A stretch of 33,030 nt of DNA from an archaeon (GTDB lineage Archaea; Hydrothermarchaeota; Hydrothermarchaeia; JALTZZ01), in NCBI GenBank assembly GCA_027051165.1, contig JALTZZ010000149.1, positions 1-33,030 on the forward strand. Reading direction: 5' to 3'. Shown here piece by piece: positions 760-32,142 of this stretch. Under the pieces are notes generated by a model that saw only the letters and a program-made list of their open reading frames with translations, did not search any database and had not been told where the DNA came from. Each line of letters opens with the position of its first letter. The first letter of the stretch is position 1. The position numbers and the translations under genes are program-made.

Positions 760-2097
760 TTAAATCTTCTTAAGAAGCTCGTTTGCAACGATGTTTATTG
801 CATCGTGAACCTGAGCCACCGCTGGCATGTAGCACGTATCAGCCTTTGCAAGGTCTTCTACACTTGCTCTCTTTTGTAAAGCTATTGCGATTGCATCTAT
901 CCTCTCCTTAACTCCTTCGTATCCAATTATCTGTGCACCAAGGACAAGCTTTGACTTCCTATCTGCAATAAGCTTTATCTTTATTTCTTTTGATCTTGGA
1001 TAGTATCTTGCCTTTGTATATGTTGTAATTGTTTTTTCTACGGCATTAAACCCTTTTTTCAAAGCTTCTTCAAGAGTTAATCCTACTCTACCTATAATAG
1101 TGTTTCTGATCATTGTAACTGAGCTCTTCACAACACCTTCGTAGCTCGCATCCCCATTTACAGCATTTACCCCAGCAACCCTTCCTTGGCGGTTTGCAAC
1201 GGTGCCGAGGGGAAAGTATATTTCCTCACCGGTTATAAGATTTTTCGTGGTTGCACAGTCGCCGCATGCATATATCCCCTTAATATTTGTCTCCATCCTC
1301 TCATTTACCCTTATAGCGTTTTTAACTCCAAGCTCGATTCCGCAATCCCTTGCAATTTCGCTGTTCGGCTCAACACCTATAGAAATGAGAACCATGTCCG
1401 CTTTTACTTCTTCACCGTTTACAATAATACCTTCTACGCTATCCTTTCCAAGGAATCTGCTTATCTTGGAGTTCAGCATAACTTTTATTCCATATTCTTC
1501 AAGTTCTTTCTTAACAATATCTGCGAAATCTCTGTCTATAAATCCCGGCAAAACCTGATCTGTAGCTTCTACAACGGTAACGTCCAAGCCCAAGCTTCTA
1601 AATGCATCTGCCATCTCTAAGCCTATAAATCCAGCCCCCACTACAGCTACCTTTGAGCAGTTTTCAATATACTCCTTTATTTTAATTCCGTCTCTGAGAG
1701 TTCTCAGTGTAAAAATACCTTTCAGCTCACTGTTTTTTATATTAAGCTTTTTAGCTCTCGCTCCAGTTGCTATTATAAGAGAATCGTATTCAAGAGAAAA
1801 TTCTTTACCCTTTTCTAAATCTACTGCTTTAACAATTTTCTTATTTGGATCTATTTTTACAGCCTTTGTTTTCGTCAGAACTCTTATACCAGCTTCTTCA
1901 AACTTCTCCTTTCTTCTTGCAATAAGATTTTCAAAACTTTTAACTTTTCCAGAGATTACGTATGGAATCCCACATGCTGCATAGGAAATGTCTTCCTGAT
2001 CGTTGATAAGCGTTATATCTGCATCTGGATTGGTTCTCTTAGCTTTTGCTGCGGCACTTGTTCCAGCAGCTACAGCACCTATTATGACGAGCTTCAT
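760..2097 (-). CDS. CoA-disulfide reductase / NADH oxidase-like flavoprotein
   Basis: A 445-residue class of pyridine nucleotide-disulfide oxidoreductase. The FAD-binding Rossmann motif lies at residues 7-12 (GAVAAG), the single redox-active cysteine is C42 in SYAACGIPY, the NAD(P)H-binding GAGFIG is near 154-159, and the second FAD motif YACGDCA is near 275. A C-terminal dimerisation domain follows. One active-site Cys rather than a CxxxxC pair is the hallmark of the CoADR/NADH oxidase/peroxidase (Nox, NPSR) group. The acidic residue in TVVEATDQV after the second nucleotide fold favours NADH over NADPH. Archaeal homologs reduce CoA disulfide, polysulfide or oxygen, so the physiological substrate stays open. 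It overlaps the upstream 2TM gene by 4 nt. There is no rhodanese domain. Confidence 0.85.
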   Translation of the reverse strand: MKLVIIGAVAAGTSAAAKAKRTNPDADITLINDQEDISYAACGIPYVISGKVKSFENLIARRKEKFEEAGIRVLTKTKAVKIDPNKKIVKAVDLEKGKEFSLEYDSLIIATGARAKKLNIKNSELKGIFTLRTLRDGIKIKEYIENCSKVAVVGAGFIGLEMADAFRSLGLDVTVVEATDQVLPGFIDRDFADIVKKELEEYGIKVMLNSKISRFLGKDSVEGIIVNGEEVKADMVLISIGVEPNSEIARDCGIELGVKNAIRVNERMETNIKGIYACGDCATTKNLITGEEIYFPLGTVANRQGRVAGVNAVNGDASYEGVVKSSVTMIRNTIIGRVGLTLEEALKKGFNAVEKTITTYTKARYYPRSKEIKIKLIADRKSKLVLGAQIIGYEGVKERIDAIAIALQKRASVEDLAKADTCYMPAVAQVHDAINIVANELLKKI

Positions 2098-23596: not shown

Positions 23597-23968
23597 CTAT
23601 CTATGCTCACCGTTCTCGTGTTTCTCGTGGCTGTGCAGATGCTCTTCTCTAAATTCTTCAAGCTCCCCTCTTAGGAGCTCATTAATTGCATTTCGTATTT
23701 TTCCCTTAGATCTGTATATTTTTATATTATTCAGCTTAAGCTTTGTATATGGTTTTTCTCCCATGTTTTTTGTGATAACCACAGAGGCACCACTTCTTTT
23801 TATCAAATGAACAGGTTTTATACACATTTTTTCATCATTCTTGTATGAAGCTACATCTTTTATTTTTCCGTTTTCAATCTCTATAACTAAAAAATATTCA
23901 GCCCTTCCAAAGTGCTCGGAAATTTCGGAATCTAAGTCTTTACCGTTACTTGGTATAGCCACCTTCAC
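23597..23968 (-). CDS. NifX/NifB-C-like (dinitrogenase FeMo-cofactor biosynthesis) protein with His-rich tail
   Basis: 123 residues. MKVAIPSNGKDLDSEISEHFGRAEYFLVIEIENG is the classic start of the NifX/NifY/VnfX and C-terminal NifB domain, a ribonuclease-H-like fold that carries Fe-S or Mo-containing clusters. Archaeal stand-alone versions are common outside nitrogen fixation. The tail HLHSHEKHENGEHR contains five His and could bind metal. It starts with GTG at 23968, overlapping the DUF134 stop (GTGA). It lies 2 nt from the sRNA end on the convergent side. With Mrp and DUF134 it forms a conserved Fe-S/metal-cluster operon; the cargo is unknown. Confidence 0.85.
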   Translation of the reverse strand: MKVAIPSNGKDLDSEISEHFGRAEYFLVIEIENGKIKDVASYKNDEKMCIKPVHLIKRSGASVVITKNMGEKPYTKLKLNNIKIYRSKGKIRNAINELLRGELEEFREEHLHSHEKHENGEHR

Positions 23969-24252
23969 CTATAATCACCTTCCCTTATTATTATGTTTTT
24001 GCCTTCTATAAGTGCTTCTGCTATCTTTTTTCTTGCAGAGGTAAGAAGTCTATGAAATGTTGGCTGTGATACCCCCATTCTATTTGCAGCTTCTTCTTGG
24101 GTAAGTTTTTTAAGGTCTTTAAGCCTTATAGCCTCAAGTTCATCAATATTTAACACTACAACGTCACCCTCTATTTCTTCATCAAGCTTTGGACAAAAAA
24201 TTTTTATTTTGGGAATAAATTCTATGCATCTTTTTTTCTTTTTTCTGGGCAT
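23965..24252 (-). CDS. DUF134 family helix-turn-helix protein
   Basis: 95 residues. A basic start (PRKKKKRC) precedes a conserved ELEAIRLKDLKKLTQEEAANRMGVSQPTFHRLL block, in which the second half is a sigma-70 region 4-like helix-turn-helix (about 53-75). DUF134 proteins are small regulators usually found next to NifX-like and Mrp genes, as here. Cysteines C9 and C19 could sense redox or metal. It begins 2 nt after the Mrp stop and overlaps the NifX-like gene. A 16-bp palindrome before the operon is a possible binding site. Confidence 0.85.
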   Translation of the reverse strand: MPRKKKKRCIEFIPKIKIFCPKLDEEIEGDVVVLNIDELEAIRLKDLKKLTQEEAANRMGVSQPTFHRLLTSARKKIAEALIEGKNIIIREGDYR

Positions 24253-24254
24253 GT

Positions 24255-25034
24255 TTAGAGTTTGAAATCTTTAAAAAAGTCCTCTTCTATATCTTCTATC
24301 TTTCCTTCATCGCACATCCTTGTTATATTTATATCCATAGGTATTTTGGCTATTAATTTTAGATTGTATTTTTCGCAGAGTTTTTCTGCTGCATCTCTCC
24401 CTATATTTACAGTTTCACCGCAGTTTGGGCATTTGAAGTAGCTCATGTTTTCGACAATGCCGAGGACTTTTGTTCCAACTTTTTTTGCCATGTCAAGAGC
24501 TTTTTCCACGATAAAGGCAGTAAGTTCTTGGGGTGTTGAAACCATTATTATACCATCGAGGTCTGCGTGGTTCATGACAGTTAATGAGGCATCACCAGTT
24601 CCCGGCGGTAGGTCTATTAGCATGTAGTCAAGCTCCCCCCACTCTACCGATTTAAGGAAATCTATAATTGCTCTGCCCACGAGTGCGCCTCGCCATACCA
24701 CAGCCATGTTTTCCTCTGGCAAAAAGAACTGCATTGACATTATTTTTATCCCGTATTTGTTGCTTTCTATCGGATATACAGATTCTGTATCTATTATTAT
24801 TTTATCTGGCTTTTTTAAACCAAAAATCTTTGGAATGCTTGGTCCAAGGATGTCTGCATCGAGTATTCCAACAGTGTATCCCCTTTTAGCAAGGCTAACC
24901 GCAAGCAGAGCTGTTACCGTGCTCTTTCCTACACCACCCTTGCCGCTCATAACCGCAATTCTGTGCTGTATCTTGCTTAGCTTTTTCCTTATTTCCTTCT
25001 GCTCTTCCCAGATATTTGGCACAGCTTCATGCAT
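24255..25034 (-). CDS. Mrp/NBP35-family Fe-S cluster carrier ATPase
   Basis: 259 residues. The deviant Walker A is GKGGVGKST at 31-39, switch I/II include LDADILGPSIPKIFG and LIDLPPGTGD (139-148), and the cluster-binding CPNC pair is at 202-205. Family members (ApbC, Mrp, Nbp35) hold a bridging [4Fe-4S] cluster at a dimer interface and hand it to apo-proteins in the cytoplasm. It is first in the operon with DUF134 and the NifX-like gene. It lies divergently to a locus coding for proteins with about nine predicted [4Fe-4S] clusters, a sensible neighbour, although no direct link is shown. No Shine-Dalgarno sequence is apparent. Confidence 0.92.
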   Translation of the reverse strand: MHEAVPNIWEEQKEIRKKLSKIQHRIAVMSGKGGVGKSTVTALLAVSLAKRGYTVGILDADILGPSIPKIFGLKKPDKIIIDTESVYPIESNKYGIKIMSMQFFLPEENMAVVWRGALVGRAIIDFLKSVEWGELDYMLIDLPPGTGDASLTVMNHADLDGIIMVSTPQELTAFIVEKALDMAKKVGTKVLGIVENMSYFKCPNCGETVNIGRDAAEKLCEKYNLKLIAKIPMDINITRMCDEGKIEDIEEDFFKDFKL

Positions 25035-25053: not shown

Positions 25054-25312
25054 AACAAAATAATAGAAATTCATAATTCGAGAATATGCACAACCTCTTT
25101 TTAAGTTTTTCACATGAACTTTAATGAAAAATAGTGAGTATAATTATTTTTTTAATAAGCAAAAACTTTTTAATTATAAATAATATATTACTTTATTTAT
25201 TTTATTAAAATGCTGGGTGTATAGGGGTTAGAGGGTAAACTTTTTATACTTGAACTGCAACACTATTAATTGCCCAACCAATGGGCACGGAAAGGTTGGA
25301 GGTGTTATAGAC
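25054..25312 (+). promoter_or_regulatory. Promoter and 5' leader of the molybdenum-enzyme operon
   Basis: AT-rich divergent intergenic DNA. TTTTTATA at 25241-25248 is a TATA box whose start site would be near 25270. The predicted leader is then about 40 nt and begins with TGCCCA (25271-25276), which pairs with TGGGCA (25282-25287). Alternatively CCAACC (25274-25279) pairs with GGTTGG (25294-25299), whose last two G's are the start of the ribosome binding site GGAGGTG (25298-25304). The two stems cannot coexist. Confidence 0.45.
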
Positions 25313-27808
25313 TTGTTAGTGAGAAGAGTTAGTGAGTCTACAAAAGACTACGATACGATTAGATATACGACATGCACAAATATGTGTGAAAGCGGTTGTG
25401 GGCTGAAAGTTTTCCTCAAAGATGGAAGAATGGTAGATATCTGGGGAGACGATGAACATCCACAGAACTACGGTGCCCTTTGTCCAAAGGGAACCGCAAA
25501 CATTCAGCACGCGTATAACCCATTAAGGGTTAAATATCCAGCGATAAGAGAGAATATAGATGACAGGTTCAGAAGAGTTACATGGGATGAAGCCTTAGAC
25601 TTTGTAGCTGACAGATTAAAGTATATTAGAGAGAAGTGGGGTGCACATGCCGTAGCCTGCCACAGAACTGGTAGAAGCAGCTTTGGACACAAGATGGGTG
25701 CCACAAGATTCCTAACAATGTATGGAACACCGAATATATTCGGTCAGGGTCCACTTTGCTGCGAATCTCCAGGTGCGAGGGGTCACTACATATTTGGTGC
25801 TAAGGAGTTCTTGAGATTGATGAATCCATGCCAAGATGCAATGAACAGCGACACGATATTCATAGCTGGTGCAAATGCTGCCGCATTAGAAGTTATAACG
25901 ATGAGATGGTTTGTAGAAGCTAAGGAAAAGCAGGGTGCAAAGCTCATTGTTGTTGATCCAAGATTTAATGCAACAATGGCAAAAGCTGATCTTGCAATGA
26001 GATTGAGACCAACAACAGATGCTTACTTAGCCAATGCGATTGCACACGTGCTTATATATGAAATAGATGGTATAGATCACGAGTTCATAAGCAAATGGGT
26101 GCACGGTTTCAACAGATATGCTGCTGAGATGAAGAAATACACGCCTGAGAAGGCTGAACTTGTTACATGGGTTCCTGCCGAGGATATTAGAAAGGCTGCT
26201 GAGTGGATTGCCTATCCAAGAAGAACTCACTTCACCGGCTGCTTAGGAACTGCTCAGCAGTATAATGCCGGTAATACAAACGCCGCCTATCAGAGCTTAG
26301 TTGCAATAACTGGTAACGTGGGTGTTAAAGGCGGCGGCTGGAACTGGCTACACAACTGCAGACCACCACTAAGCGCTGGTAAAGATTTGGCTGAATATAA
26401 GAAGAAGATAAAAGAGCCTATAATTAGTGATAAGATAATCCCATGGGGTGATACAAGCTCAGCTGCTATAATACATGTCATTCTCACCGAGAAGCCTTAT
26501 CCAATTAAAGGATTCATAAGCAATGGTGATCATCCAGGAACACAGTGGCCAAACATAAACAAGGTTAGAGCCGCAATGAAGAAGCTCTACCTACACGTGC
26601 ACCTAAGCTATCATCCAAACGGCACAGCTGCAATGAGCCATGCAATATTCCCAATAGGAAGCGAGTTCGAGAGAGAGGGTCTCTGCCATCACGGAAACAA
26701 CAGACACATGCAGTGGCACAACTGGATAATACCAAGACAGTGGGAGTGCAGAAGCGATATAGACTTCTGGGCTGGATTAGCTAAGAGGTTTGAATTTGCT
26801 GAGCAGTTCTATGCACCAGAAGGAGAGAGCTGGTGGGCTAAGGAGACGCCACTTGGTGAGCCAGTCCCAGAGGATCCAAACTATCCAGGAACAACAATTT
26901 ATATAGATGAGAAGAAGAGCACAGACTTCTTCAACACAAGCGAGCCATTTACAGCTGGCTGCACGTGGGATGTTCTTGATCCAGAGAGATCTCCAAAGGG
27001 CGGTGTAATGTGGCCGGCAATGACGAAGGACGAAGCCATGATGTACAGCGATCCAGAGGCTACGATAAGAGGTGCCCAGTGGATAATGTATAAAGAAGGG
27101 GTTAACTATCCAGGAACAAACAAGAGATTCCCAACACCAAGCGGAAAGGTTGAGCTATACAGCGAAGCCTTAGAGCAGATGGGATGGTATCCAGTTCCAA
27201 TACACATAGAGCCAAACGAAAGCCCAGCTGCAAGACCAGACCTATGGGAGAAGTATCCAATAATAATGAGCTCTGGAAGATTAGTAGCCCACTTCCACGA
27301 GATGGGACACTGGTGGCCATGGATGGTTGAGCTTGAGCCTCACAGATTCATAAACATACATACGGAGCTTGCAAAAGTCCTCAACATAAAGGAGGGCGAC
27401 CTTATAGTTGCTGAGAACGACAGAGGTAAGATCGTTGGACCTGCATGGGTCAATGAGATGGTTGATCCTGGTGAAGCATGGTTCCCAGAAGCCTTCGATC
27501 CATATCAGCCGTTCTATCCATACGAGAGCGGCAACGTGCTTGTGGACGACGTAATCAAGGATCCATATTACACACAGGCACAGTATAAGTGCAACCTTGT
27601 AAGAATCTATAAGCTCGGAGATGATCCAGAGGAAGCAGTTAGAAAGACCAAAGAATTCTTAAAGAAGATCGGAAGAGATCCAAAGAGCTATCCAGATCCA
27701 AAGACAGACGAGAGCGTGCACCTCGGAACCTATACAAGGTTCTTCAAGGAAGGAAGCGGTATATACTTAGAGCCACAGCCAAGTGTAGAAGAACACTTCA
27801 AGAAGTAA
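25313..27808 (+). CDS. Molybdopterin oxidoreductase catalytic subunit (DMSO reductase superfamily)
   Basis: 831 residues from the TTG at 25313, 8 nt after a perfect GGAGGTG; a TTG at 25250 would add 21 residues encoded by the leader hairpins. N-terminal [4Fe-4S] ligands C21, C25, C29 and C57 (CX3CX3CX27C), then CPKG with the Lys between cluster and cofactor. The segment FGQGPLCCESPG (143-154) places C149 as the likely Mo/W ligand, as in PsrA/PhsA, Nap and formate dehydrogenase types; the usual Cys-His of formate dehydrogenase is Cys-Cys here. The MopB C-terminal domain is complete. There is no Tat signal, so the enzyme is cytoplasmic. Substrate unknown; a sulfur-oxyanion or polysulfide reaction is a guess from neighbours. 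C-ending codons suggest high expression. Confidence 0.88.
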   Translation: MLVRRVSESTKDYDTIRYTTCTNMCESGCGLKVFLKDGRMVDIWGDDEHPQNYGALCPKGTANIQHAYNPLRVKYPAIRENIDDRFRRVTWDEALDFVADRLKYIREKWGAHAVACHRTGRSSFGHKMGATRFLTMYGTPNIFGQGPLCCESPGARGHYIFGAKEFLRLMNPCQDAMNSDTIFIAGANAAALEVITMRWFVEAKEKQGAKLIVVDPRFNATMAKADLAMRLRPTTDAYLANAIAHVLIYEIDGIDHEFISKWVHGFNRYAAEMKKYTPEKAELVTWVPAEDIRKAAEWIAYPRRTHFTGCLGTAQQYNAGNTNAAYQSLVAITGNVGVKGGGWNWLHNCRPPLSAGKDLAEYKKKIKEPIISDKIIPWGDTSSAAIIHVILTEKPYPIKGFISNGDHPGTQWPNINKVRAAMKKLYLHVHLSYHPNGTAAMSHAIFPIGSEFEREGLCHHGNNRHMQWHNWIIPRQWECRSDIDFWAGLAKRFEFAEQFYAPEGESWWAKETPLGEPVPEDPNYPGTTIYIDEKKSTDFFNTSEPFTAGCTWDVLDPERSPKGGVMWPAMTKDEAMMYSDPEATIRGAQWIMYKEGVNYPGTNKRFPTPSGKVELYSEALEQMGWYPVPIHIEPNESPAARPDLWEKYPIIMSSGRLVAHFHEMGHWWPWMVELEPHRFINIHTELAKVLNIKEGDLIVAENDRGKIVGPAWVNEMVDPGEAWFPEAFDPYQPFYPYESGNVLVDDVIKDPYYTQAQYKCNLVRIYKLGDDPEEAVRKTKEFLKKIGRDPKSYPDPKTDESVHLGTYTRFFKEGSGIYLEPQPSVEEHFKK

Positions 27809-27822
27809 AGGGGGTGAGCTAA

Positions 27823-28608
27823 ATGGTTAGCGATGAAGAACTCTTCACAGAAAAGGATTTCTGCACAGTATTTGATGACATAAAGCTTATACACAGATTC
27901 TGGCAGAGAAACAAGGAAATTGGATTATACGAGGTTCAGGGTGCAAGGCGCTGGGCAATACCACCAGACCACATAGGAATGCTTGTTGACTTCGACAGGT
28001 GCATAGGGTGTTTTGCATGCGAGACTGCATGCAAGCTTGAGCATGAGCTTCCAATGGGTCCAAGACTTATAAGAGTAATGCAGATCGGTCCAAAGAAGGT
28101 AGGAAAGCACCTAAAAATGATCTACTATCCAATGGCATGCTTCCACTGTGGTAGAGCACCATGCGTAGATGCATGCCCAACTGGTGCAATGATAAAGAGG
28201 AGCAAAGACGGCATTGTCTATGTTGACAGTGAAAAGTGCATAGGGTGTAAGCAGTGCATGCAGGCTTGTCCATTTGGAGCACCTCAATTTGATAGCAGAA
28301 CTGGTAAAGTTATAAAGTGCAACTACTGTATGCACAGGATTGATAAGGGCTTAGCTCCAGCATGCGTTACAAAGTGCAGCACAAATGCACTTATATTCGG
28401 ACCATACAAAGAAGTATCAACATACTTCAGAGATAAGAGAGCAAGGCAAGTAGCAGCTGGATTCTTTGACAACAAGAGAGACACCGATCTGTTAAGCGGA
28501 CCAGCATACGTTTGGCCAGAAAAGCAGTATCTGCTACCAAGGTTTGCACTTAGACCAGGAAAACTGATGGAGAGACCACCAGTAGGCAAGCCTGTCTTTA
28601 AGAAATAA
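27823..28608 (+). CDS. Four-cluster ferredoxin-type electron-transfer subunit 1 (DmsB/PsrB/NrfC-like)
   Basis: 261 residues with 16 ligand cysteines for four [4Fe-4S] clusters: C60/63/66/70, C106/109/114/118, C139/142/145/149 and C166/169/181/185. This is the standard beta subunit of DMSO-reductase-family enzymes, passing electrons to or from the catalytic subunit. An N-terminal extension of about 55 residues precedes the first cluster. Start ATG 27823 follows GGGGGTGAG and lies 14 nt after the catalytic gene, so translation is probably coupled. It shares two nearly identical DNA blocks with the second subunit gene downstream. No membrane anchor (NrfD-like) gene follows. Confidence 0.9.
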   Translation: MVSDEELFTEKDFCTVFDDIKLIHRFWQRNKEIGLYEVQGARRWAIPPDHIGMLVDFDRCIGCFACETACKLEHELPMGPRLIRVMQIGPKKVGKHLKMIYYPMACFHCGRAPCVDACPTGAMIKRSKDGIVYVDSEKCIGCKQCMQACPFGAPQFDSRTGKVIKCNYCMHRIDKGLAPACVTKCSTNALIFGPYKEVSTYFRDKRARQVAAGFFDNKRDTDLLSGPAYVWPEKQYLLPRFALRPGKLMERPPVGKPVFKK

Positions 28609-28649
28609 TTCTATTTCTTTTTTATTTTAATTTGTAAAAAGGTGAAAAA

Positions 28650-28976
28650 ATGGTTAAAAAGGAAGAAAAAGGTAAGAAGGTAGCTAAAAAACCTGTTGTT
28701 AAGAAGGGAAAAAAACCTGAATTTAAGTTCATTCCTGAGGATATAAAGAAGATCATTATAAAGCCCTCTGGTGATTGGAAGCACGCTACTACTTATGTTA
28801 GGGAGATTCAAGCTTTAAGAGTGGCTAATGCCTTTTTTGGCAGATTTTTGGGAGAGACAAGGGTCAACACAGAAGGTTTTAAGAAGCTAATGGAAGAAAG
28901 GGATATCTTAGTAAGTCCAGCTTCAGCCTATCCAGAGAAGCAGAGAGTTTTAAAGAGAGAGAATTTAAAGCCTTAG
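28650..28976 (+). CDS. Unrecognised Lys-rich 108-residue protein in the molybdenum-enzyme operon
   Basis: Residues 1-28 are a Lys/Glu/Val-rich, probably disordered tail (VKKEEKGKKVAKKPVVKKGKKPE). A compact remainder, KFIPEDIKKIIIKPSGDWKHATTYVREIQALRVANAFFGRFLGE..., is predicted to be mainly helical and has no cysteine. Start ATG 28650 follows AAAGGTGA. It lies between two genes for electron-transfer subunits, 41 nt after one and 11 nt before the other, so it is surely part of the operon. It could be a structural subunit or an assembly chaperone. I recognise no family. Confidence 0.75.
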   Translation: MVKKEEKGKKVAKKPVVKKGKKPEFKFIPEDIKKIIIKPSGDWKHATTYVREIQALRVANAFFGRFLGETRVNTEGFKKLMEERDILVSPASAYPEKQRVLKRENLKP

Positions 28977-28987
28977 GTGGTGAATGA

Positions 28988-29830
28988 ATGTTAGAAGGAT
29001 CATTATTCGATGTTGATAGGTTAGAAGAGCCGAGAGATAACAATATTGTAATGCTCATTGATCTTGGTAGGTGCATAGGGTGCTTTGCATGTGAGACTGC
29101 ATGCAAGCTTGAGCATGAGCTTCCAATGGGTCCAAGACTTATAAGAGTAATGCAGGTTGGTCCTAAAACAGTATATAGAAAAGAAAGGGTAAAAGTAAAA
29201 GAAAATGGAAAGCTCGTTGAAAAAGAGAAGGTAATGCCAAGAATAAGAACTCTTTACATACCAATGCTCTGCATGCACTGCACACCAGCTCCATGCGTAG
29301 AAGCATGCCCAACTGGTGCGATGAAAAAAAGGACAAAAGATGGCATAGTCTATATAGAGGAGGAAGCATGCTTAGGGTGCAAGCAATGCATGCAGGCTTG
29401 CCCGTTTGGAGCACCTCAATTTGATAGCAGAACTGGTAAAGTTATAAAGTGCGACTTCTGCATGCACAGGGTTGACTATAAGAGAGTGTTTGAGAAAGCA
29501 GATTTAGAAAAAATTTATAGATATATATATGAGAAGGGCGGACAAGTGTATTCAGTAGCCTACGATGAGCTTGGTGATATTAAGAGAAATGAAAAGGGCA
29601 GACTTGTAGATGAAAATGGGGAAGTTCTCCAAGGAGACCTTTTGCTAAAAAGAAAGCCTGTAGAGAAGATAGAAATAAATGGGCTCTGGAGTGCTTGTGC
29701 AACAAAGTGCACAACAGACGCAATGAAGTTTGGTTATTATAAAGACTTAAAGCCGTATATAGAAAAGCTTAAGGAAAAGAGAGAAATAAAAAGGCTTGGC
29801 AGCGTATTTTATGCGATTCCAAAAGGTTAA
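28988..29830 (+). CDS. Four-cluster ferredoxin-type electron-transfer subunit 2, with a long insertion
   Basis: 280 residues, paralogous to subunit 1. Cluster ligands: C29/32/35/39, C95/98/103/107, C128/131/134/138 and C155/158/237/241. Relative to subunit 1 it lacks the long N-terminus, has a charged insertion between clusters one and two (about 61-86), and has 78 instead of 11 residues between the second and third Cys of the last cluster. The insertions probably form a different docking surface. ATG 28988 follows GGTGGTGA. It could serve a different redox partner or a second oligomeric position of the same complex. T-runs after the stop close the operon. Confidence 0.9.
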   Translation: MLEGSLFDVDRLEEPRDNNIVMLIDLGRCIGCFACETACKLEHELPMGPRLIRVMQVGPKTVYRKERVKVKENGKLVEKEKVMPRIRTLYIPMLCMHCTPAPCVEACPTGAMKKRTKDGIVYIEEEACLGCKQCMQACPFGAPQFDSRTGKVIKCDFCMHRVDYKRVFEKADLEKIYRYIYEKGGQVYSVAYDELGDIKRNEKGRLVDENGEVLQGDLLLKRKPVEKIEINGLWSACATKCTTDAMKFGYYKDLKPYIEKLKEKREIKRLGSVFYAIPKG

Positions 29831-30918: not shown

Positions 30919-30942
30919 CGTTAACATAAAGGGGTGTTCTTG

Positions 30943-32142
30943 ATGGTAAGAATAGGTAAAGATTTTAAGTTTGACAGACTTGAAGCCTCAGGTTCTCTTG
31001 GCGATCTGGGAACGCTTCTACCGTTGGCACTTGGAATGATACTGCTAAACGGAGTAAGTCCCGTAGGGCTCTTTTTCATGGTTGGGCTTTTTTATTTAAT
31101 GGCTGGCATATACTACAGGGTTCCTACCCCAGTTCAGCCGATGAAGGTGATAGGGGCTTATGCAATTGCAAACTATGCCCTTATAACTCCGAACATTATA
31201 TACGCTTCCGCTCTTCTTATAGGTGCTATTCTTGTTTTCCTTGGTATAAGCGGACTTATAGAGCTGAGCAAATACGTTCCGAAAACCGTTGTTAGGGGTG
31301 TGCAGCTGAGCGTAGGGACCCTTCTGCTTGTGAAGGGTTTAGAATTTATAAAGTCCCCTCCTCAAGGTGCCTTAGTTCCAGAATATCAGTTCAAGCTTGC
31401 TGAAATTGGTTTGTGGAATATAAATCTATACCTTGTTGTGGGTATAGTAAGTTTAATAGCAGCTTTTCTGCTTTTAGAGAACAAAAGAGCTCCGGCAGCA
31501 CTTATAATAGTTATAGGGGGTTTCATAATAGGTTTGTTGTTTGAAAGACCAAGCTTGGACATAGGATTTCATGTTCCGAAGCCTATATTCTTTGAATCTA
31601 TGCCAAGTCTAAGCGACTTTGCAACTGCATTTTTCCTCCTCGTCCTTCCTCAGCTCCCAATGACAATAGGAAATGCAATAATCGCTCAACGAGACTTGGC
31701 TCACAATTACTTTGGCAACAGGGCTAAAAGAGTTACTTATAGAGCTCTTTCAATAAGCCAAGGGTTAGCGAATATAGGGGCTTTTATATTTAAGGGCATG
31801 CCAATGTGCCATGGGGCTGGTGGGTTAGCAGCCCATTATAGATTTGGTGCAAGAACAGCTGGAAACAATGTAATAATCGGCTCTTTTTTCCTTATAGTAG
31901 CAATACTCTTTGGAGAGAGTTCTGTAAAAATAATAGAACTTCTACCGTTCTCCATACTCGGCGTTCTTCTGTTCTTCGCCGGTGCTGAGCTAATGACAAT
32001 GATAAAAGATTTGAGAGAGAAAAAAGAGTTCTTTATTCCCTTAGTTATGCTCGGAATAACTCTCGTAAGCAACCTTGCATGGGCATTTTTCATAGGAATA
32101 ATACTTGCATATCTGCTCAAATATGAAAAAATAAAGGTTTAA
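30943..32142 (+). CDS. MOT1-type molybdate/sulfate transporter
   Basis: 399 residues with about ten to twelve helices. The two diagnostic motifs of the MOT1 (SulP-related, STAS-lacking) family are present: SGSLGDLGTLLPLALG near residue 17 and RVPTPVQPMKVIGAYA near 65. A second-half PQLPMTIGNAIIAQRDLA and the GMPMCHGAGGLAAHYRFGAR stretch also fit. Characterised members take up molybdate, some sulfate. The ATG at 30943 lies 6 nt after AAGGGGTG; the GTG at 30934 is within that site. It is probably cotranscribed with the TauE/SafE gene. Next to a molybdopterin enzyme, molybdate uptake is the likely role. Confidence 0.85.
   Translation: MVRIGKDFKFDRLEASGSLGDLGTLLPLALGMILLNGVSPVGLFFMVGLFYLMAGIYYRVPTPVQPMKVIGAYAIANYALITPNIIYASALLIGAILVFLGISGLIELSKYVPKTVVRGVQLSVGTLLLVKGLEFIKSPPQGALVPEYQFKLAEIGLWNINLYLVVGIVSLIAAFLLLENKRAPAALIIVIGGFIIGLLFERPSLDIGFHVPKPIFFESMPSLSDFATAFFLLVLPQLPMTIGNAIIAQRDLAHNYFGNRAKRVTYRALSISQGLANIGAFIFKGMPMCHGAGGLAAHYRFGARTAGNNVIIGSFFLIVAILFGESSVKIIELLPFSILGVLLFFAGAELMTMIKDLREKKEFFIPLVMLGITLVSNLAWAFFIGIILAYLLKYEKIKV

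Follow-up and report, generated by a model that had tools for sequence, protein, structure and literature searches.

Molybdopterin (MopB) enzymes form a biogeochemically central superfamily, and several described groups share features with the enzyme presented here. The cytoplasmic formate dehydrogenases (FdhF, HDCR; TIGR01591) come closest by model score and by solved structure, and like our enzyme they are cytoplasmic, have a Cys or Sec ligand to Mo and keep a Lys after the FS0 cluster, but our protein scores well below the cut-off of their model, their catalytic His and Arg are replaced in it and its tree position is different. PsrA/PhsA and ArrA/TtrA share Cys-ligated Mo, a four-cluster beta subunit and a NarJ/TorD-type chaperone; in contrast, these enzymes are exported, and Psr and Phs are also membrane-anchored. 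bSreA and SoeA are cytoplasmic and Cys-ligated, with sulfur-linked hosts, but as described in the main text of a superfamily survey (PMC10100899) they have three subunits, including a membrane subunit. That main text names neither the clade described below nor Hydrothermarchaeota.

Layout of the operon and its subunits

The window (the whole 33,030-nt stretch of DNA that was analysed) is part of the 2.38-Mb genome of a Hydrothermarchaeota-type archaeon from a hot vent and carries four consecutive + strand genes at 25313-29830. The first encodes the catalytic subunit (alpha, 831 aa, 25313..27808, +), a MopB superfamily protein whose Fe4S4, molybdopterin and dinucleotide-binding domains (PF04879, PF00384 and PF01568) all score above the Pfam cut-off. 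Next come b1 (261 aa, 27823..28608, +), a beta subunit whose four [4Fe-4S] motifs are followed by a C-terminal tail; a Cys-free protein of 108 aa (28650..28976, +); and b2 (280 aa, 28988..29830, +), a second beta subunit with the same number of [4Fe-4S] motifs, which has inserts and is without a b1-type tail. An earlier note on this DNA had placed a complete catalytic subunit, two four-cluster subunits and a 108-aa gene in one operon, and all are present; since other Hydrothermarchaeota have the same set of genes, a chance arrangement is excluded. The open frame of alpha begins at 25250, but the TTG start assigned at 25313, which gives 831 aa, is supported by a Shine-Dalgarno-like GGAGGTG read from the sequence 8 nt 5′ of it (25298..25304, +) and by agreement with close relatives, which are 830-831 aa long. 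Adjoining alpha, a divergent - strand segment (23597-25034) encodes a NUBPL/Mrp-type ATPase, a DUF134 regulator and a NifX/FeMo-cofactor-type protein.

The enzyme had been proposed to be cytoplasmic and free of an NrfD/DmsC membrane anchor, and both proposals are supported at the level of the locus. Alpha has no Tat or hydrophobic N-terminus and no transmembrane segment, and its first FeS Cys is residue 21. No NrfD/DmsC anchor was found in the operon or among the uninterrupted runs of same-strand genes at 52 loci; the polytopic membrane proteins encoded there were limited to MOT1 and, for the window, transporters of the TauE family, and FAD proteins with three borderline membrane segments are Rossmann folds according to Pfam. 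The Tat export and NrfD-type anchor that characterise PsrA/PhsA are therefore missing from the window locus, as is the membrane anchor subunit of bSreA/SoeA; an anchor might still be encoded elsewhere in the genome.

Both beta subunits are 4Fe-4S dicluster proteins (Pfam) and have the 16 Cys in four [4Fe-4S] motifs of DmsB/PsrB-type four-cluster (CISM) subunits. These account for 16 of the 17 Cys of b1 and all 16 Cys of b2, and the motifs are intact in both, in agreement with the earlier description of two paralogous 16-Cys subunits. When seven archaeal loci were analysed phylogenetically, b1 and b2 each formed their own group (100/99); the duplication may or may not have taken place within archaea (87/88). 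This phylogeny points to an old duplication with retention of both copies; as two old, separately conserved orthologue groups, b1 and b2 are probably both functional. Parts of the two genes are highly similar in the window, with DNA identities of 90% (27978-28094 vs 29050-29166) and 86% (28155-28343 vs 29287-29475) compared with 69-85% in other loci, possibly due to gene conversion. Bacterial relatives have one beta subunit of the b1/b2 type.

The 108-aa protein matched no family in Pfam or NCBIfam, and the earlier note had taken it for a novel protein. Instead, it is a homologue of the b1 tail, encoded as a detached domain. A nine-member family of these small proteins aligned with a stretch of ∼52 residues in the C-terminal tail of b1 (hhalign 97.1%, E 6e-11), and the window protein matched b1 sequences by blastp (best E ∼2e-7 to 1e-6); no homology to b2 was found by these comparisons. 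In the archaeal loci, L003 and L009 among them, the small gene separates b1 from b2. These alignments make b1 look like clusters plus tail, and b2 with the small protein look like its split equivalent. A bacterial 81-aa protein was rejected as a counterpart of the archaeal 108-aa protein (hhalign 0.1%, no homology). Outside Hydrothermarchaeota, a conserved 77-90-aa protein with a PIRV.Y..GD..KA / PYHATI motif is encoded after the beta gene (L013:11291-11536 and 29 other loci); it has no Pfam or NCBIfam match and shows no homology to the 108-aa protein.

Active site, tree position and spread of the catalytic subunit

Alpha has a single FS0 cluster of the CX3CX3C type (C21, C25, C29 and C57) and keeps the Lys after it (K59). 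The LCCESP motif previously noticed at the Mo-ligand region is present, and its C149, which aligns with FdhF U140, is invariant in 50 relatives; a Cys ligand argues against membership of the Asp-ligated group. Position 150, aligned with FdhF H141, is Cys in 47 of the 50 and Thr in the other three, and FdhF R333 aligns with an invariant His (H347). Both catalytic residues of formate dehydrogenase are thus replaced in 50/50 relatives, which argues against formate chemistry. Further invariant residues are R350, H459, H460 and E151, with R118 and R121 nearly so, and the conserved Arg and His residues would fit an anion pocket. The nearest solved folds to an AF2 model of alpha (pLDDT 77, pTM 0.84) were FDH and NapA (TM ∼0.7). 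Since this model is weak at residues 147-153 and 658-676, the Mo-ligand and FHE loops, what we say of the pocket is drawn entirely from the alignment.

We gathered 53 related loci at 45-88% identity (68-88% for matches in Hydrothermarchaeota MAGs). Their hosts are Hydrothermarchaeota, Altiarchaeales, Acididesulfobacter/SZUA-79-type bacteria, Sulfobacillus, Nitrospirota, Chloroflexota and actinobacteria. A family profile (A1) built from 25 of these loci was scored over some 430 genomes. Members reached 1090-1535 bits and two fragments 575 and 744 bits, while every other scored protein stayed at or below 318 bits, i.e. the clade is sharply isolated within the MopB superfamily. Alpha occurs in 14 of 23 Hydrothermarchaeota genomes (11/14 high-quality ones), in 9/198 Nitrospirota genomes (two known beforehand) and in 1/201 Chloroflexota genomes (that one known beforehand). 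A sharply separate branch of a central superfamily is carried by most good genomes of one archaeal phylum and is scattered over several bacterial phyla.

In maximum-likelihood trees, the family formed one clade (100/100), and the references for Fdh, Nap/Nas, Phs/Arr/SoeA-like and Dms/Tor enzymes all fell elsewhere. This separateness holds for the sampled clades, as TtrA, acetylene hydratase, ArxA, bSreA and Asp-ligated references were absent from the trees. A Sulfobacillus SoeA-like protein (L133), assigned to this type solely from the FeS and membrane genes next to it, grouped with Phs/Arr, outside the alpha clade. The sister of the family (97-98/98-99) is an uncharacterised mixed group (L098, L099, L061, L105 and L108) that shares an FH...H motif with it, but scores at most 318 profile bits, has an FS0 of the CX2CX3C type and has several Tat-exported or ferredoxin-fused members. 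In this second MopB group (with L061:5353-8280 and further relatives), some Tat-exported members have their own beta subunit and chaperone.

Alpha reached no NCBIfam cut-off. The best score was to Fdh-alpha (TIGR01591, 271 vs 666 bits); other scores were PhsA (NF012032, 201 vs 694 bits), NasC (174 vs 1100 bits), NapA (99 vs 904 bits) and ArrA (NF041714, 98 vs 1600 bits), and in the trees alpha lay outside the FDH, PhsA and Nap/Nas clades. With the replaced His and Arg, these results agree with the earlier view that the enzyme is not a formate dehydrogenase, and no characterised clade with these subunits was found. The clade is unnamed in the literature searched and apparently undescribed; the kind of enzyme is known, but neither there nor in the model libraries does the clade appear to be described, nor its set of subunits and companion genes. 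For Hydrothermarchaeota, Carr et al. (PMC6775978) list genes of the fdo, nap and narGHIJ types and no thiosulfate reductase; some of these fdo, nap or nar genes may correspond to the window-type locus. Sulfobacillus SoeA-like and formate dehydrogenase genes are discussed in PMC4378227, in whose accessible text the alpha operon is not described. For a clade without a curated model, the best-match label would be 'formate dehydrogenase' or 'nitrate reductase', and it is on such labels that the metabolism of these organisms, mostly uncultured, is reconstructed.

Proposed reaction and its alternatives

From the sequence features, we consider it likely that the enzyme is a cytoplasmic, quinone-independent Mo oxidoreductase that acts on a small anion and uses soluble electron carriers. 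A Mo-bis-pyranopterin, with Mo bound by the invariant C149, would catalyse a two-electron oxo- or sulfur-transfer on an anion held in a pocket of R118, R121, H347, R350, H459 and H460. Electrons would be exchanged between Mo and FS0, and a four-cluster beta subunit (either b1 or the pair of b2 and the tail protein) would link FS0 to a soluble carrier, without direct use of the quinone pool. This carrier would probably be ferredoxin in the archaeon, whereas many bacterial relatives would probably use NAD(P)H by way of an FAD pyridine-nucleotide reductase. We regard the small protein as a probable structural subunit, giving b2 the tail that b1 has covalently. We infer the carrier, the direction of the reaction, the pocket and the subunit assembly, and likewise Mo rather than W, the latter from the neighbouring MOT1 gene. 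At this locus one can test the idea of a soluble molybdoenzyme, possibly linked to NAD(P)H, that has its beta subunit in duplicate and dedicated companions of the radical-SAM type.

Our leading guess for the substrate, which we put forward tentatively, is a sulfur oxyanion (sulfite, thiosulfate, tetrathionate or polysulfide), with the cytoplasmic enzyme feeding or draining the Dsr pathway. The window genome encodes DsrA and an adjoining DsrB-like protein, and DsrA over the cut-off was present in 9/11 good Hydrothermarchaeota genomes with alpha compared with 0/3 without (Fisher p 0.027). However, the association weakened over all 23 genomes (p 0.10), and both p values are uncorrected for shared ancestry. 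Among the other carriers, Sulfobacillus and Acididesulfobacter are named as sulfur organisms, and cytoplasmic Cys-ligated sulfur enzymes are known in bSreA and SoeA (PMC10100899, main text), but the conserved operons contain no sulfur gene and the Sulfobacillus SoeA-like protein groups elsewhere.

An assimilatory or detoxifying reductase of another oxyanion (nitrate, selenate, arsenate or chlorate), comparable to NADH-dependent assimilatory nitrate reductase, seems unlikely. The Arg/His-rich conserved residues, the NarJ-like chaperone and the resemblance of the bacterial-operon FAD protein to NirB/PadH-type pyridine-nucleotide reductases would suit such a role. Yet the same genome already encodes two separate Tat-exported enzymes, one Nap-like with neighbours of the NapG/NapH type and one Arr-like located next to arsenic-type genes. 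Neither a nitrite reductase gene nor one for a nitrate transporter was seen beside the operon, and the NasC, NapA and ArrA scores are far under their cut-offs. At the Arr-like locus (L059:1808-14884, on contig C11 of the window genome, G000), the enzyme is accompanied by a beta subunit, a chaperone, MoeA, MobA, an efflux permease and an ArsR-like regulator, and arsenate respiration in Hydrothermarchaeota via this locus is possible.

The earlier note had also suggested two electron exits, i.e. one alpha feeding two acceptors at once via b1 and b2. Intact four-cluster motifs in both subunits and their ancient, separately conserved groups are consistent with this, but we regard it as quite improbable: the archaeal operon encodes no flavin subunit, the relation between the b1 tail and the small protein suggests parallel, alternative betas, bacterial relatives manage with one beta of this type, and with its single FS0 alpha could equally have b1 and b2 as alternative partners or in series. 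Finally, formate dehydrogenase, which automatic annotation would suggest from the best NCBIfam score and the best solved relative (FdhF), is very improbable given the replaced His and Arg, the low score and the tree position of alpha, and a separate true FDH over the cut-off exists in other genomes of the phylum (L142, L143), with none over the curated cut-off in the window genome.

Companion genes and a possible role in maturation

Two transporter genes follow b2 in the window. A TauE/SafE-family anion permease (PF01925; 29980..30918, +) was seen beside the enzyme in the window only, and its link to the enzyme is uncertain. Next to it is a MOT1-family molybdate transporter (PF16983, 176 bits; 30934..32142, +). 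MOT1 is a neighbour of alpha in five loci from at least three phyla and, since these include Sulfobacillus and Chloroflexota loci (L026, L032, L037, L049), it is probably functionally linked to the enzyme.

Bacterial operons contain MoeA, MobA, a MoaA-like radical-SAM protein, a PTPS-like protein, an FAD pyridine-nucleotide reductase (PadH/NirB-like) and an extra ferredoxin, with an HdrB-like protein in addition in SZUA-79-type operons. The FAD protein scores 284 bits against a PadH-type cut-off of 475, and its partner ferredoxin is present. PadH/PadI of phenylglyoxylate dehydrogenase is of the same NADH-linked FAD plus ferredoxin type, but is attached to a different catalytic subunit and is absent from the window operon. 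NAD(P)H linkage is therefore likely in many bacterial relatives; the archaeal operon of the window has no FAD reductase. An FAD protein encoded elsewhere in the window (760-2097) was rejected as an obvious partner, with ∼30% identity to the operon-linked proteins.

Most archaeal operons include a NarJ/TorD-type chaperone. In the window genome its orthologue is on another contig (C80), where the gene overlaps one for a B12-binding radical-SAM protein. The two genes overlap or are near each other in four archaeal lineages (L154:6952-9881 on C80, L009, L010 and L046), and in L009, L010 and L046 homologues of the radical-SAM gene are near the alpha operon. In ∼24 bacterial loci (L013:12907-14258 and equivalents), the MoaA-like gene is next to the PTPS/QueD-like gene, between moeA and mobA. 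Its product scores 166 bits against a MoaA cut-off of 231, and its C-terminal Cys cluster is incompletely conserved. As MoaC was present in 5/5 genomes tested, the MoaA-like/PTPS pair is no simple substitute for the standard MoaA/MoaC route, and this replacement was rejected. A long shot is that the clade needs a dedicated, non-standard maturation, by the MoaA-like and PTPS-like proteins in bacteria and by the B12-binding radical-SAM protein, whose gene is coupled to that of the chaperone, in several archaea (the window genome included), leading to a modified pyranopterin or active-site residue; this would be chemistry not known in the MopB superfamily. MoaA-like orthologues also occur in two Hydrothermarchaeota genomes (L046:13751-14671 and, in the window genome, L157:10909-11853). 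The latter shares 59% identity with the copy in the L046 operon, and a second, MoaA-type gene is also present. A second Mrp-type gene lies beside this MoaA-like gene (L157:11916-12674).
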